Assembly: GCA_964020155.1 (NCBI GenBank)
Contig: OZ026547.1
Span: forward strand, 5,703,009-5,767,008
Length of the DNA: 64,000 bases
Reading direction: 5' to 3'
From: Chondrilla cf. caribensis
Taxonomy: Eukaryota > Porifera > Demospongiae > Chondrillida > Chondrillidae
Position numbers and translations under genes: made by a program. The notes below the pieces were generated by a model that worked only from the letters and a program-made list of their open reading frames with translations, ran no database searches and was not told the DNA's origin. The first letter of the stretch is position 1. Every line of letters begins with the position of its first letter. Below, in pieces: positions 49,498-57,108 of the stretch.

Positions 49498-50021
49498 CTG
49501 GATCTTTTGTATCCTGGAGTACTAAGACAGTCTCAGCAAGTTGAGAACAGTTATCAATAATTGCTTTCCATAGTAAACTTTCATCTGTATAGGTGATAAA
49601 ATTTCTTCCAATGTTCGTACTTGGGAGTTCACTTCTGGCTATCAGCAACATGGAGACACATTCTTTTAGAGTACTGCCATTCTTGCCTTCTGCAACAAAA
49701 ATGCACAACGTGGAAAAGCATTTGTCATTACTTGACATAAGTATGCTATCAGGTTGTCTTATTGTGATCACCTAATAAGAATAATCGTAGTTTAAGGGGG
49801 TAATTATAGCTAAAGGCCTGTTTTTAGATTTTCTCAAACTTTCACAGATTGAAGATAAATATCACTGAAGCACTTGCAGTTTATTTTGGTACCTTTAGTT
49901 TTATTACAGAAATAAGGCAACCAGAATAGTACTTCCAAAAAAAATTTCGACCCCTTCAGCCATAATTACCCTCTTAGCTGTTTAACAGTTACCTGTATTA
50001 GCTTGCACTTTGACTCCTTCA

Positions 50022-50300
50022 CACTGTAAAAACTGATGGATTATTTCAACCATCATTGGTTAAATAAACCTCTATAAGTAATAGTTATAGTAACTTCAAC
50101 CAAGTTGAAATATCCTTATATAGTCAAAACAACTAAAGTTAGTTGAATCAACCTATAAATGGCACATCAACCAATGACAATTGTAGTCATTTCAACCAAT
50201 CAGTAGTAATAATGACTACAACACAACGCTATCAACCTTCAATGTGTTATTTTACCCATTTACATAGATTGTAACACCCGTTGATGGGTTGTTTTGACAC
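50022..50300. repeat. Left terminal and subterminal repeats of the transposon
   Basis: After CACTGTAAAAAC come TTCAACC or TCAACC motifs near 50045, 50094, 50150, 50167, 50193 and 50230, in both orientations (for example CTTCAACCAAGTTGAAA). Arrays like this are transposase-binding sites in plant CACTA elements. Confidence 0.7.
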
Positions 50301-50440
50301 AAAGAATTGGTATTTGAACCAAGAGACATTTTTATATATTCAATATTTATCATATTATTATTGAGACTTTGATCCAAGCAAATTGCATGTAGTTTTGCTT
50401 CGAAAGTGTTTGCTATTGCCTGAAAGTGTAATGCACAATG

Positions 50441-50472
<32 letters not shown>
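50441..50472. repeat. (AT)n tract
   Basis: About 15 AT units inside the transposon, downstream of the transposase stop. Confidence 0.9.
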
Positions 50473-50475
<3 letters not shown>

Positions 50476-50579
50476 TACGTTCATGCATGTAATAACTATG
50501 CACTTATATTCTATAAAACAATAGCATGCACTGCATCCACATGCAAACTATGATTTTGCAAACATCATTATTATTTCAA

Positions 50580-53500
50580 TTATTGCACAATATGCATATA
50601 CTTGGGTACAATACATAAAGTATTATTTCTAATACGATGGCAATGATAAACCGAGTAATCAGTAATACTACTATATTGCAAAACAATCTGATTGGGGAAG
50701 AGTTCAATGAAATACCCTTGATAATGTGAATCAAATAGTGCTGAACATGGAGATATAATCAATAGAACAGTTGCAGCTCCCAGCACATATATTTCGTCAA
50801 TTCTGCCGAAAGTGGGCTCGTCATTACTAGACCCAGTCACTACAAAGCAGTCTTTTACTTTTAGTGTAGTGCCATACGTTTTCATCCACCTCGGTTTGAA
50901 TACACTGGTTTCCATACTGATGTCTGGGAATAGAGTTATAATGGAGGTCTTTCGGGACTCTGATTCAGACATGAGTACATCTGGACTTGGGCCTGGACCA
51001 AATTCTGGCTCAGAAGCTACAATACCAGAGGAAGCATTTTCGTAACAGCTCCAGCGTTGCTGGCGGTAAGCTAATGTAAGGGCAATATTCTTAAAATTTC
51101 CAATGTGAGCAGCCTGTTTGAAGAAATGTAATTTGGCTTCATAACGCATTGTCCACGAACGAACCAATGGTCCTAAATTTAACATCAATTCGGGATAATG
51201 ACACATGTAGTGCATTTTAGGGGTAATTGTTTCATTGGGATATACCGCCTTGAAGAGTGTATGGTGTTCTTCAACAATAACCTGTAAAACTGCACACAAA
51301 TCTTTGCTCACGACAGGACTCAAACATATGCGAACTATTTTCAGAAGGAGCAAGTAACATTCCCAATGTGAGTCCTCTTCTTCTATATATTCACCAACAA
51401 GCAATGGTAAAATCCGACAGAGGAGAGCACACTGACTTGCATTCTGCCTCAAATGTTTGTCGTTCGTCTGAAGATTTCTATGAGTTATTGGTGTTGGCTT
51501 GTTGGCAACTTCCGAATACCCATAGTCGAAATTTAATAGCAACTGATTTAAATGCTCCAAATTTATTGCTTGTTTAAGAACTAAATGTTTGATGAGCAGC
51601 TTTAGTTCATACTGCACTACCCCTTCAAATAAATCATGCATAATATCATGTGGTAGTCCACCATTGAACATGCTGTAAGCAGCAACATCGAGCAGTATGG
51701 AGGGACGTGTGATTCCATATGCAGTAGAATAATGTTCTCGTAATGGACCATTTAACAGTGAACATTGTTGCCTATGATTACTGTCTGTTCGCAACTCGAA
51801 ATGATGCGAACGGAAGCATGTAGAAGCCTTTTCGGAAGTGGCCATACAAGTGCGGCAAATTCTGAGTGCACGAGATACAGACATTTTAAATCCACCAACC
51901 TCATGTAATGCCAGTGTGTCACCCAAGAAGGCTAAAAGAGCACCTTTGAAATTGTGATTGACACCATTTACCATTACGTCAATTCCAGAATTAGACAGAA
52001 CATTCAAATCATTGACAAATGGTCGCAGAATTTCATCTATTCCATGCTTTTGAACTACAGTGGCAGTAGCAATTGAAACTAAATTGATAGCTTGCAAACG
52101 AGAGCGATGTTTCGGGGGTAGGTTTCCAAGTACAAAAAACATTACACCAACTTTGTGCTTTTTTACATACGATCCCAATGCATTACACAGCTCCAGCTCA
52201 TCGTAATAGGCTACAATTTGAAGTGCGCATGGATGATTCTGAAATACCTCATGATTCTGGAATATTAGTCCATCACAATAGTCTTCCAAGTAGCCATTAA
52301 ACTTAATTCTATCTTTAGTATGTATCACCATTTCAACAATATTTCTTTCTGCCAGCATACGTTTCAAAGATGAAAGCAGTGAAACATACTGGAAAGTATC
52401 CTGGACCTGTACAGCTTCCCTTTTGTGTCCCGTAAACCTCTGTGAGTAGTATGGACTACCAATTTTAACCTCAACTGGTTCCTACAAGGAAAATATAAAT
52501 GTGAGCCAGTATAAAGCACCTACATAAATTAACAGTCACCACTAAATTGCAAAACTCACAATTAAGCCTAATTTTTCAACAAAGTATCGTTCTTGCTGAT
52601 AGCGGGTTGTCAATCCATCGAAAGGGTCAATCATGCTTTTAAACACTGTTTCCAAACCTTGCACTTCTACACCTTCCTCGGCCAACTTCTGCTCCAAGCC
52701 TGATTGAATGTGTTCAATGCTCTGTGCAAAAAGTACGCGAGAGCTTTCTACAATGTCATCAATAGTTGTCTGTGTTAAGCGTCTTTTCTCCTTAAGCTTT
52801 AAAAGAAATAAAGCACTTGATCTTCGTTGAGTTTCAACATCAATTCCAGTAAGCCGTTCATATACTGGATCTTTAGAATCACAAAATAAATACATGTAAA
52901 TATGTTGATCATAAAATTCTGTTGTCACTCATAATTGATTCTCACTGACAGAAGTACAATGGTTACTATACTTATTACAATTAGAACACCTCAAGCATAC
53001 CAGAGCAAGAAGTGCCTCCTTTATCGAGAGGATAAATTTAAAATGCATTTACATCGAACAGCCATCACGTCAAAGACACGTAGTATAACACAATTGTTAT
53101 TATTCAAGCTCTGTTTAGAATGGTTGCCTCTCTAGCAGTTCACATAAGAGGGAGATAAATTATGATTCACATGCATGACTACCCTTTAAATGCATACAAA
53201 TTTAGAATATTCACGTGTCAATTTGCTATCGTGATAGGTTCGAATGGACGGTTATACACACGTAAAAAGAAATTGCTTGGACGGGAGAAACTTCGTATAA
53301 AACGCATGATCTATAACAATAAACCAAACAATCGTGAAGAACCTAACAGAGGTGCTCTAAGTGGAATAAGTACGGTATAGACAGAGAAACGTTAGCTAAC
53401 TCTACCGCACGAATTATCACTATAGTATTTACTTGATATTGCTGGGGTATCCATAAATCCGTTGTCTACTACATCCATTTCTGCGTTGTCCGAATTTTCT

Positions 53501-53718
53501 TCTCCAAGCGATGACTGACCTCTTTTCCTGACAAGTTCGGGATGTTTACGATAAACGTGCGAATAAAGACCACTGTAGGATTTCTTAGTTTCACTGCATC
53601 CGTTATATCCACAAGTGACAATAAAAGATGGATCATTTCGATGAACTAGAGCCAAATGGCTTAACAACTGACGATAGTCCGCTGAGCAAAACGTTTTGCA
53701 AAGAGAACAATTATACAT
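50580..53718 (-). CDS. C2H2 plus tnp2-like transposase of the CACTA element
   Basis: Exons 53433-53718, 52560-52870 and 50580-52481, with phases 1 and 0, give 832 residues. The ATG at 53718 starts MYNCSLCKTFCSADY. Residues about 2-28 (C-x2-C, H-x4-H type) and 36-60 (CGYNGC, then HVYRKH) are C2H2 fingers. Residues about 100-150 (ALFLLKLKEKRRLTQTTIDD) are a helical linker. The catalytic region follows: YYDELELCNALG near 291, CRTC near 408, GLPHDIMHDLFEGV near 475-487, and MRYEAKLHFFKQ near 645. The Asp, Asp and Glu in these motifs are the likely DDE residues by comparison with the tnp2/EnSpm family. No stops or frameshifts. Probably nuclear; cuts and pastes the element. Confidence 0.85.
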
Positions 53719-53748
53719 TGTAAGAGAGTACTCTATACCTAGTCTCAC

Positions 53749-54000
53749 TATAGATTGATGATGTCATCGATCGAACACGTGGTTTACCACGTGGTTTACC
53801 GCGCGTGCGCAGAAATTGCATTTATTTGAATTTGTACTCAGTGTAACTACATCGGTATCCCCTTTGCGAATTGTCATTGATTGGAGACAATTGCCATTGA
53901 TTGGAGAGTCGGGTTTGAATAGGATACTTCTAGCGTGAACTCAGATCATTTCTGTCTAAGTACATCTTGCATCACCGGGATCCGCAATTGTCGAGTAGCT
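53749..54000. promoter_or_regulatory. Divergent promoter region of the transposon genes
   Basis: A stretch of about 250 bp between the two divergent genes. It holds repeated CACGTGGTTTAC (about 53779-53805), an ATGATGTCATCGAT box and a directly repeated CATTGATTGGAGA (53876 and 53896). No TATA box is obvious for either gene. Confidence 0.5.
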
Positions 54001-56037
54001 ATGGCCGTTGAAATTAAGGGAATGAGTGTGGATGATTTGATGCAATGGTTAAAGAAAGAAGGAATTCCAGAAGAATTTTGCCAAAAATTCGAAGGTTTTT
54101 AAATCGTTAACCGTTAACTGTATGCCAAATTGTGTTTATGTATTTTAGCTACATGTTTAGCTACCGATACTGTTACTTTAATTTATGGAATTCTTGGAAT
54201 ACCTTGATTTCTCTCCTCATGTATGTGTGTGCAAAGCTTTGCCTTCAATCAATTCCTTTTAAAATCTTGTGCAGATAACTACATTGATGGTAATGAATTT
54301 CTTGAACTCACTGAAAGTGAAATCAAAGATATTGTGCCACCAATTGGAATAGCCAAAAAAGTTATTCGTTTGCAGCCAAAGGTTTGTTTGCATTTTTCCT
54401 CTAGTGTGCCTAATTTGGTGTATGTGAACCTAGATTATTTGTATGAATGCCTTTTACAGCCATTTCCAGATTTTTCTGAACCTGTACTGAGCCCAACACC
54501 ATCAGTTACCTCTGTTATGGAGTCTTCAATAACTTCACTGAGTTCCACTGACAAAGGGGAGCATGCTTCACCGAAGTCACCAGATGTTGAACCCATTGAA
54601 ATCCCCTCAAAGTGGCGTGATGATACATTGGCGTGTATTAGCGAGAAGAAACTTACCCCAAGCGCAAGGAAAGAGATTGTTCAAACTCTGGTCACACTGG
54701 TGATCTCTAAATTTGGATCCAATCCAACAAAGGCACAGTTGGAAATTGTTGCAAGACGCCTGATTCTGAAGTACCCATTTATGAGGGATGACATTGGGAC
54801 TGGATATGTAAGTCACATGCATGCAGGTATGCCATTCTGGTATTGTTAATGATTATACTTGCATGGTGTCTACAGGCATCCTGGATTGATAAAATGGTTG
54901 AGAGAAAGCGCAATTTGCAAAAGAATGCAAAAAAGCGCTCTTCCTTGGGTGAGACTTCTCATCCTGCTTCAAAGAAAAGCAAGATATCAGGCTTGCAGCA
55001 AAGATATCCGCTTACCTTTACACTGCCAACTGATGAGGATGACGAAAGTATCAAACGACACACTAAGGCTCTTGATGAAGAAATGGCAAGAGACAAACCA
55101 AGAGACCATCTATTACTGCCATTAATGAAGTCCACCTTCTATGCCCGGAGAATGGTAATCCTGAATGATGAGCAACCAGTCAGTGATCTTCTAAAGGAAT
55201 TTGGTGCCTTAAAGCGTATTTCTGTGGTGAGTGTACTGTAATAGTTAGTTCATTTTATGTATATTATATTCATGTTGCTGTATGTTATATCTATTATGTG
55301 TCTATAGATTGAGCAGGAGATGGCTCTCATTGTTGATTTGAAAGAAGTCAAAGCTAGCTTTTTGAAAAAATGGAATTTGTCATGTGTGCCTGCCATAATA
55401 GAATATATGAGGAATTCCAGGAAATTTTTACCCCTTCTGTCGAAGATGGAAGAGGCAGGTGAGAAATGGTGTGCCACCTACTTTTATGTACATGTGCCAT
55501 GATTTTTATATACTGTTTTTTTTGGCACCGTTGAATTGAAGATGAGACATCGCGTCAAGTTATAGCTTTTAAAGGACTTGTTGAGGCTATGAATACAACC
55601 AAACAGTTGAACCTTAATTACCTTTATGAGGAGTACAAGGTACGTACTGATGCAGTGCGTGATGCTTGTTTTATTGCATGGTGGCCATTTTGTTTTGTGG
55701 TTCATTGTAGGTGTCAACACCCATGGATGATGTTTGTACCGAAAGCCCTACCAGAAATTCCCCCCGCATTGCAGCATTGGTAGGAGAAGAGGCTGTGCAG
55801 TATTTTATCATCATAGAGCAGGCTGTCTACATTCAGGTGCCAACCTTCCAGCTTGCACTTTTTGTTGCTTTTAGTTCTTACTACATTTTCAATCTGGCCT
55901 ACCCCAAGCAGATGCAGAAAGTACTGTTCTTTCTACAAGACTATGTTTTGGGTATGCCAGATTCATCTCGCAGACCAGGGGCATATTTGGCTATTGCCTC
56001 GGACATTAGTAAATTTCTTTCTAAAATGAGCAGTTAG
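54001..56037 (+). CDS. SAM-domain protein encoded by the CACTA element
   Basis: Seven exons (54001-54094, 54275-54381, 54460-54807, 54876-55226, 55308-55458, 55542-55639, 55711-56037) join in frame to 491 residues. Residues 7-67 form a SAM domain (MSVDDLMQWLKKEGIPEEF, then YIDGNEFLELTESEIKDI and PPIGIAKKVIRLQ). A Ser/Thr/Pro linker follows, then a helical region (LTPSARKEIVQTLVTLVISK, then ARRLILKYPFMRDDIGTGY). Next comes a Lys-rich likely nuclear segment (KKRSSLGETSHPASKKSK), and the C-terminal half is helical, ending KFLSKMSS. Proteins of this build are annotated in fish, cnidarians and sponges as SAMD3-like, often in many copies. SAM domains make head-to-tail polymers, so it may organise the transposase on the element ends, as TnpA does in maize En/Spm; that role is inference. 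Confidence 0.85.
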
Positions 56038-56135
56038 TAACTTGTCCAGCTTTAACAGATTGAACATTTTTCATATTTTAATTTTGTTAACACCTTATAC
56101 TTAATTTCAATCTCTATACTTCAGATTGTATTGAC

Positions 56136-56141
56136 AATAAA
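56136..56141 (+). terminator. Poly(A) signal of the SAM gene
   Basis: AATAAA 99 nt after the stop codon of the SAM-domain gene. Confidence 0.6.
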
Positions 56142-56269
56142 GATTAGTATTCTGGACATACATATGATTATAATGTAATGCTGCATTGTCTTTGGTTATT
56201 GCTATATATAATGCATCAGTCATTGTTTATGTTTATATACGTATCAATTGCAAACTGTTACTTTAACAG

Positions 56270-56790
56270 TATACGGCATGTGGGACTTCAACAGTGATGG
56301 TCGAAAGTAGTACTTTGTCTTTATTGTAATTATAACTCCTATTTGAGTCATTGCAATTTAAGTACTACTTTACAGTGGTTATAACAACCAGCTTGAAAAG
56401 TTCAAACTGGTAGTTATACTGTCCTGTATGGACCGATATAGTCATTATAAGCTAATAGTATTACTCGCAGTAGTGGTTGAATCATATAATATATGAATCA
56501 TTGTAAGGTTGAAACAACATACTCAGGAGGTTAAATCGAGTAGTTTTCAGTTGTTGTATTGACTCATACTTGAGTCATAAAAAACTTGGTTTTACCTGCA
56601 AAAGTGGTTAAAACAAACAACTTGGATATGTTATAATAACCAGTAATTTAGTTTGATATGACATTGTAAATTAATGGTCAATTTAATCACTTCTTGTGTA
56701 AGTTATCTTAACCACATAGTTGGGTTGCCTGAGTTGCAGAATTTTTAACCCACTTTTTTGGGTTGAAATAACTAAACTGTTTTTACAGTG
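56270..56790. repeat. Right terminal and subterminal repeats of the transposon
   Basis: GGTTGAA or GGTTAAA motifs near 56475, 56503, 56530, 56604 and 56762, AACCA/AACCC motifs between them, then TTTTTACAGTG. Denser and longer than on the left. Confidence 0.65.
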
Positions 56791-57108
56791 CATTGCATGC
56801 ATACAGTAAATCGACATATTGAAAGTGCCTTCTCAATTTCTGCATGGCTTTCTCCAAAAACAGTAGATCTGGGCTGCATCTTACCACAAAGGTGAATCTG
56901 TCAACCATCAATGAATTGATCTCTTTAGATGTAAGAACCATTGTCTGCAATATGTCCTCTGTCATTGCTTCCTGTGAGGATGTAATCAGGAGTTTAACTT
57001 GTGGCATGAAGATTGCTGCATACACATGGTAGCTGTCTACAAAAACAATGTCATATGAAGCTTGTGGCAGTTCATTTTCTGAATTTGTACATGATGAGTA
57101 TATTTACA

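Follow-up and report, generated by a model that had tools for sequence, protein, structure and literature searches.

A two-gene element in the Chondrilla window

The stretch analyzed here, referred to throughout as the window, comprises 64,000 nucleotides of the genome of the sponge Chondrilla cf. caribensis (contig OZ026547.1, positions 5,703,009 to 5,767,008), and between its positions 50022 and 56790 lies an element of 6,769 bp, bounded by inverted CACTGTAAAAAC ends, that holds two predicted genes, one for a transposase and one for a protein with a SAM domain. An earlier note on this DNA had described a complete CACTA-type transposon with matching CACTG termini, subterminal repeats and two intact, divergently transcribed spliced genes, and our analysis bore out each of these points. 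The termini fall at exactly 50022 and 56790, and the terminal inverted repeats (TIRs; 50022-50051 and 56761-56790) pair at 25 of 30 positions, the first 12 without exception. The dinucleotide CA on either side of the element (50020-50021 and 56791-56792) forms a 2-bp target-site duplication (TSD); duplications of 3 to 6 and of 8 bp were checked and none was found. Within both noncoding ends, TIRs excluded, the motif TTNAACC/GGTTNAA occurs nine times against 0.73 expected, a count of nine or more being reached in 0 of 500 shuffles; as the motif was chosen on the data in which it was counted, this enrichment is descriptive. No enrichment of it was found in two further copies described below (C13 and C14). 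The features of the element are as follows.

50020..50021, no strand: left target-site duplication CA, matching the CA at 56791-56792
50022..50051, + strand: left terminal inverted repeat, CACTGTAAAAACTGATGG..., 25/30 positions pairing with the right end
50052..50579, no strand: left subterminal region with TTNAACC/GGTTNAA-type repeats
50580..52481, - strand: transposase exon 3, up to the stop codon; encodes the catalytic core and a BAH-like domain at the C-terminus
51138..51140, - strand: E647 codon, putative third catalytic acid; invariant in 42 sequences, placed by spacing relative to RAG1
51918..51920, - strand: D387 codon, putative second catalytic acid; invariant, immediately after a core strand
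52200..52202, - strand: D293 codon, putative first catalytic acid; invariant, inside a core strand
52560..52870, - strand: transposase exon 2
53433..53718, - strand: transposase exon 1; start codon and two C2H2-like zinc-finger motifs
53719..54000, no strand: spacer of 282 bp separating the two divergent start codons, a presumed two-way promoter with two CACGTG boxes
54001..54094, + strand: SAM gene exon 1 (SAM domain, first part)
54275..54381, + strand: SAM gene exon 2 (SAM domain, second part)
54460..54807, + strand: SAM gene exon 3 (linker, conserved helical region)
54876..55226, + strand: SAM gene exon 4
55308..55458, + strand: SAM gene exon 5
55542..55639, + strand: SAM gene exon 6
55711..56037, + strand: SAM gene exon 7, up to the stop codon (C-terminal region, conserved)
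56038..56760, no strand: right subterminal region, repeats as in the left one
56761..56790, - strand: right terminal inverted repeat
56791..56792, no strand: right target-site duplication CA

The transposase and the SAM protein

The predicted transposase gene (minus strand) encodes 832 amino acids in three exons (53718-53433, 52870-52560 and 52481-50583, with the stop codon extending to 50580); every intron has GT/AG borders and there are no internal stops. Against the Pfam family Transposase_21 (tnp2, PF02992) the spliced window protein scored 27.4 bits (E 2.3e-6), slightly below the 28.6-bit cut-off, and in a six-frame search of the genome the same transposase reached 30.8 bits, above it. 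All four transposases of our set A2 matched this family at E<=1, the best at 2.3e-6. The C2H2 motifs are evident by eye, and their support from Pfam is weak (E 5.7 for the window protein, E 0.005-0.05 for single members of the four). Structure comparison showed that the fold matches the RAG1 or Transib core, and that the C-terminal tail has a BAH-like fold. D293, D387 and E647 are the putative catalytic triad, assigned by spacing only, with RAG1 residue numbers serving as reference for E647. Relatives of the transposase are plentiful in the protein database (203 at E<=0.001, many of them unnamed). One database protein (P0005) is, as judged by eye, the same as the last exon of the transposase at locus C13 (L043), so that proteins of this or a near species have already been predicted from a public assembly.

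The predicted SAM gene (plus strand) consists of seven exons between 54001 and 56034, with the stop codon reaching 56037, and encodes 491 amino acids in an open frame interrupted by GT/AG introns. Its SAM_1 match scored 26.3 bits, above the 23-bit Pfam cut-off, and the Pfam matches of the protein above a cut-off were to SAM families only. Residues 10-80 and about 131-225 are the parts of this protein where the structural model is strong enough for claims on the fold. Scm, Sfmbt, L3MBTL3 and SAMD1 are among the proteins with the nearest solved SAM domains, and those of DGK delta, Shank and SARM1 score about equally. Among the matches listed in the protein database, the relatives were two proteins of Dysidea avara (P0001, 42%, and P0002, 36%), both annotated 'uncharacterized protein', and two unnamed entries. 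No relatives were confirmed in viral contigs (queries A2, A1 and P0001) or in genome contigs (query A2).

Copies of the gene pair in the genome

A six-frame search of the genome with the SAM protein returned at least 30 matches at no fewer than 10 distinct loci; because the search scores best candidates, locus counts given here are lower bounds. Regions beyond the SAM domain were matched at eight loci (the window, C3, C22a, C22b, C13, C14, C2x and C11), and a ninth, C16, was found through its paired CACTGTAAAAAC ends. Two matches on contig C7 (L033 and L037) were excluded from the nine, since they cover the SAM domain only (residues about 10-73), and were taken as ordinary SAM genes. L037 (G000:C7:4302979-4306170) has two SAM-like frames, the family's other regions being absent and no end motif lying within its 3.2 kb.

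All nine loci that carry non-SAM regions of the protein lie between CACTG/CACAG inverted repeats. At seven (the window, C3, C22a, C14, C16, C2x and C11) the inverted ends start with CACT, and at C13 and C22b they start with CACAG. The earlier note had proposed to look for both genes within the termini of other copies, and the pairing recurs: transposase sequence is present at eight of the nine loci, near full length at seven and as the zinc-finger exon alone at C11, the ninth locus being a deletion derivative. Where both genes are present they are arranged head to head in seven of eight cases, namely C11 and six with a near full-length transposase (the window, C3, C22a, C22b, C13 and C14), and in tandem in C16. 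Transposase identity is 38-53% among five of these six, C3 being a near copy of C22a. The predicted SAM frames are open at the window, C13, C22a, C22b and C3. In the spacer between the genes, where the window has its two CACGTG boxes (53772-53809), C14, C3 and C22a have one each, and C13 and C22b have zero.

The remaining loci are more distant or reduced. In C16, a 14.7-kb element, both genes are on the same strand and more distant from those of the other copies (SAM 21-24%, transposase 33-34% identity). C11, a 2,766-bp element, retains a divergent SAM gene, whose spliced score of 139 compares with a maximum of 80 in 20 shuffles; it is arranged head to head with the zinc-finger exon. C2x is a 3,168-bp deletion derivative with perfect 30-bp ends and the C-terminal half of the SAM gene only (E 1.6e-8); transposase matches near it were weak (best E 0.009) and lay outside its ends. 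Duplications of 2 bp flank 14 of 16 elements, including C11, the two without being C14 and C10, and no 3-bp duplication was matched among 15 elements examined. When the entire window element served as a DNA query, no further copy of its own family turned up, the matches being 138 bp at C14 and a simple repeat in the window itself. Nor was any member of the SAM family found at a host locus outside inverted repeats in this genome by the best-candidate search. We therefore rejected for this genome the reading of the SAM gene as a host gene, as 0 of 9 loci with the non-SAM regions lie outside inverted repeats.

Joint movement, parallel divergence and constraint

Evidence for movement of the two genes as one comes from C3 and C22a, which differ in eleven columns over 7,327 bp (99.8% identity). 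Their flanks are unlike, and both copies are bordered by TA at either end; near-identity, different flanks and TA duplications together show that the two-gene unit transposed as one. Within this genome, the results support a SAM gene that is enclosed by the transposon's ends and travels along with the element. Furthermore, SAM and transposase distances rise in parallel across six copies (Mantel r 0.92, a value reached in 2 of 720 permutations), and also when C16 is left out (r 0.87, reached in 2 of 120), so the two genes have remained paired. In six comparisons among the window, C13, C22a and C22b, nonsynonymous differences per site were 0.33-0.46 for the SAM gene and 0.32-0.43 for the transposase, with synonymous sites near saturation (0.71-0.84) and with the C13 alignment extending past the transposase's own stop. 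By these similar rates, the SAM gene is constrained about as tightly as the transposase. As far as sequence comparison can tell, such constraint argues for a job in the life of the element over mere cargo, and does not itself name the job.

Based on these results we regard the window element as probably an autonomous-looking animal CACTA element of a two-gene lineage, in which a RAG1-fold DDE transposase is accompanied by a SAM-domain partner protein, and the SAM gene very likely belongs to the transposition machinery and is no ordinary gene of the host. Several observations weigh against this interpretation. Eight of the nine loci were ascertained via the SAM gene and C16 via its ends, so that the set is no transposase-led census of the lineage. 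The SAM matches are weak at C11 (best E 4.5e-5) and C16 (8.9e-8), and the SAM gene of C16 stands in tandem with the transposase instead of divergent from it. C2x and C11 carry deletions, the TG duplication of C2x is ambiguous as this element lies in a TG repeat, and C14 is decayed, its SAM exon 1 being interrupted by an in-frame stop and its transposase gene by a frameshift. The subterminal motif varies from copy to copy. For the SAM protein, the Foldseek matches of the SAM domain have a best E of 0.16, and no DNA-binding fold was found in a model that is poor beyond its first half (pLDDT 62). Finally, PF02992 has nine matches in the genome, two of which are the window and C22b; near the seven others, on six contigs, the SAM search gave no match, so a SAM protein is not a general requirement of tnp2 genes. 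These seven, mostly higher-scoring, look like another tnp2 type, and the PF02992 list missed C3, C22a, C13, C14 and the C16 pair and is thus no census of the lineage.

Comparison with known systems

CACT inverted ends, a tnp2 transposase and a TSD of 2-3 bp, by which CACTA (En/Spm, CMC) elements are recognized, were all found in the window element. Plant CACTA elements make 3-bp TSDs, in contrast to the 2 bp seen here. The maize element En/Spm is alike in having CACT ends, subterminal repeats and a tnp2-type transposase with a second element protein, and retention of a second protein with the transposase was seen at eight of the nine SAM-family loci. According to one paper (PMC1636069), transposition of En/Spm requires the products of both tnpA and tnpD, and TnpA and TnpD derive from one alternatively spliced unit, unlike the two separate genes found here. 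SmTRC1 and the animal TRC elements share with the window element an animal host, Transposase_21, 2-bp direct repeats at the ends and additional proteins. The same source reports 2-bp direct repeats in 7 of 14 SmTRC1 copies, ends of CCC, and second proteins, SmTRC-PrA and SmTRC-PrB, for which no relatives could be detected in other elements of animals or fungi (PMC1636069). The window element differs in its CACTG ends and in a SAM partner that recurs in divergent copies.

The transposase has the RAG1 or Transib core fold, and the element would work like RAG/Transib without being a member: its TSD is 2 bp, whereas the one standard for RAG/Transib is 5 bp. The SAM domains of Scm, Ph, Shank and DGK delta form polymers; they are among the nearest solved structures and share the SAM fold, a likeness limited to the domain. 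Judging by titles and the starts of abstracts among the papers listed, none links a CACTA transposase with a SAM protein, so that absence of such a link from print is a weak claim.

Possible roles of the SAM protein

We propose that the transposase would recognize the element's ends, cut and paste the element and leave the 2-bp duplications, and that the SAM protein would be needed for this step or would regulate it. By analogy with TnpA, the SAM protein may oligomerize through its SAM domain, settle on either the transposase or the subterminal repeats, and so join the ends; this is the likeliest of the mechanisms considered, held tentatively, at somewhat under even odds. Next in order, and rather unlikely, is a role in chromatin or transcription, suggested by the nearest SAM domains (Scm, Sfmbt, L3MBTL3 and SAMD1) together with the BAH-like end of the transposase. 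The protein would then be an element-encoded regulator or host-chromatin adaptor (for escape from silencing, targeting or copy control) outside the cutting complex, an explanation to which we give the same minor share of belief. The same paper (PMC1636069) adds that maize TnpA acts also on its own methylated promoter, which fits such a role; however, the comparable scores of the DGK delta, Shank and SARM1 domains make the chromatin link unspecific.

The SAM gene might instead be a passenger that a CACTA element picked up from the host on a single occasion and has transported ever since, with no part in transposition. CACTA elements do capture pieces of host genes, seven PF02992 matches have no SAM match in their vicinity, and two elements keep SAM sequence after losing most or all of the transposase. 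We nevertheless consider this reading improbable, given that the pair is retained in copies whose SAM proteins are only 21-50% identical, that five SAM frames are open with transposase-like constraint in the four compared, and that the search of this genome turned up no host gene bearing the non-SAM regions that could have been the source. Since the two genes diverge in parallel and are similarly constrained, sequence comparison favors an accessory factor over cargo. That a transposon merely inserted beside a host SAM gene, its second end being coincidental, has nothing weighty in its favor beyond the commonness of the 12-base end motif (100 genome matches versus 40 for a reversed control pattern). 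With 9 of 9 loci within ends, and the 99.8% identical C3/C22a pair, end to end and with different flanks, refuting it, we rejected this explanation, whose probability we put close to nil.

More broadly, an ancient animal CACTA lineage may constitute a two-component system, pairing a RAG1-fold, BAH-tailed transposase with an obligate SAM assembly partner in parallel to RAG1/RAG2, and scattered SAM or 'uncharacterized' genes of this build, including the two in Dysidea avara, may be transposon genes or domesticated remnants; we advance this as a conjecture that could readily fail. The result assigns a conserved second protein to at least one animal CACTA lineage, and the need of a RAG1-fold transposase for a partner becomes testable outside the RAG system. 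It also cautions that one family of SAM genes annotated in animals may consist of mobile DNA.

Other elements

Elements of 6.8-14.7 kb at C10, C12 and C16 (L049, L050, L051 and L052+L053) have CACTGTAAAAACAG and G/C-rich ends in common. In C10 and C12b (8-9 kb, with C16-like ends) neither the transposase nor the SAM protein was matched at E<=1, and the long frames are simple repeats; these two look like non-autonomous relatives of the pair-bearing C16 element. Four short elements (L054, L055, L056 and L057; 177-1,108 bp), whose ends read CACTGTAAAAACAC... and which are flanked by 2-bp duplications, are derivatives of CACTA elements with another end type, resembling miniature inverted-repeat transposable elements (MITEs). 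Just beyond the left end of the window element lies a 184-bp MITE-like stretch (49793-49976) with 24-nt inverted ends (88%).
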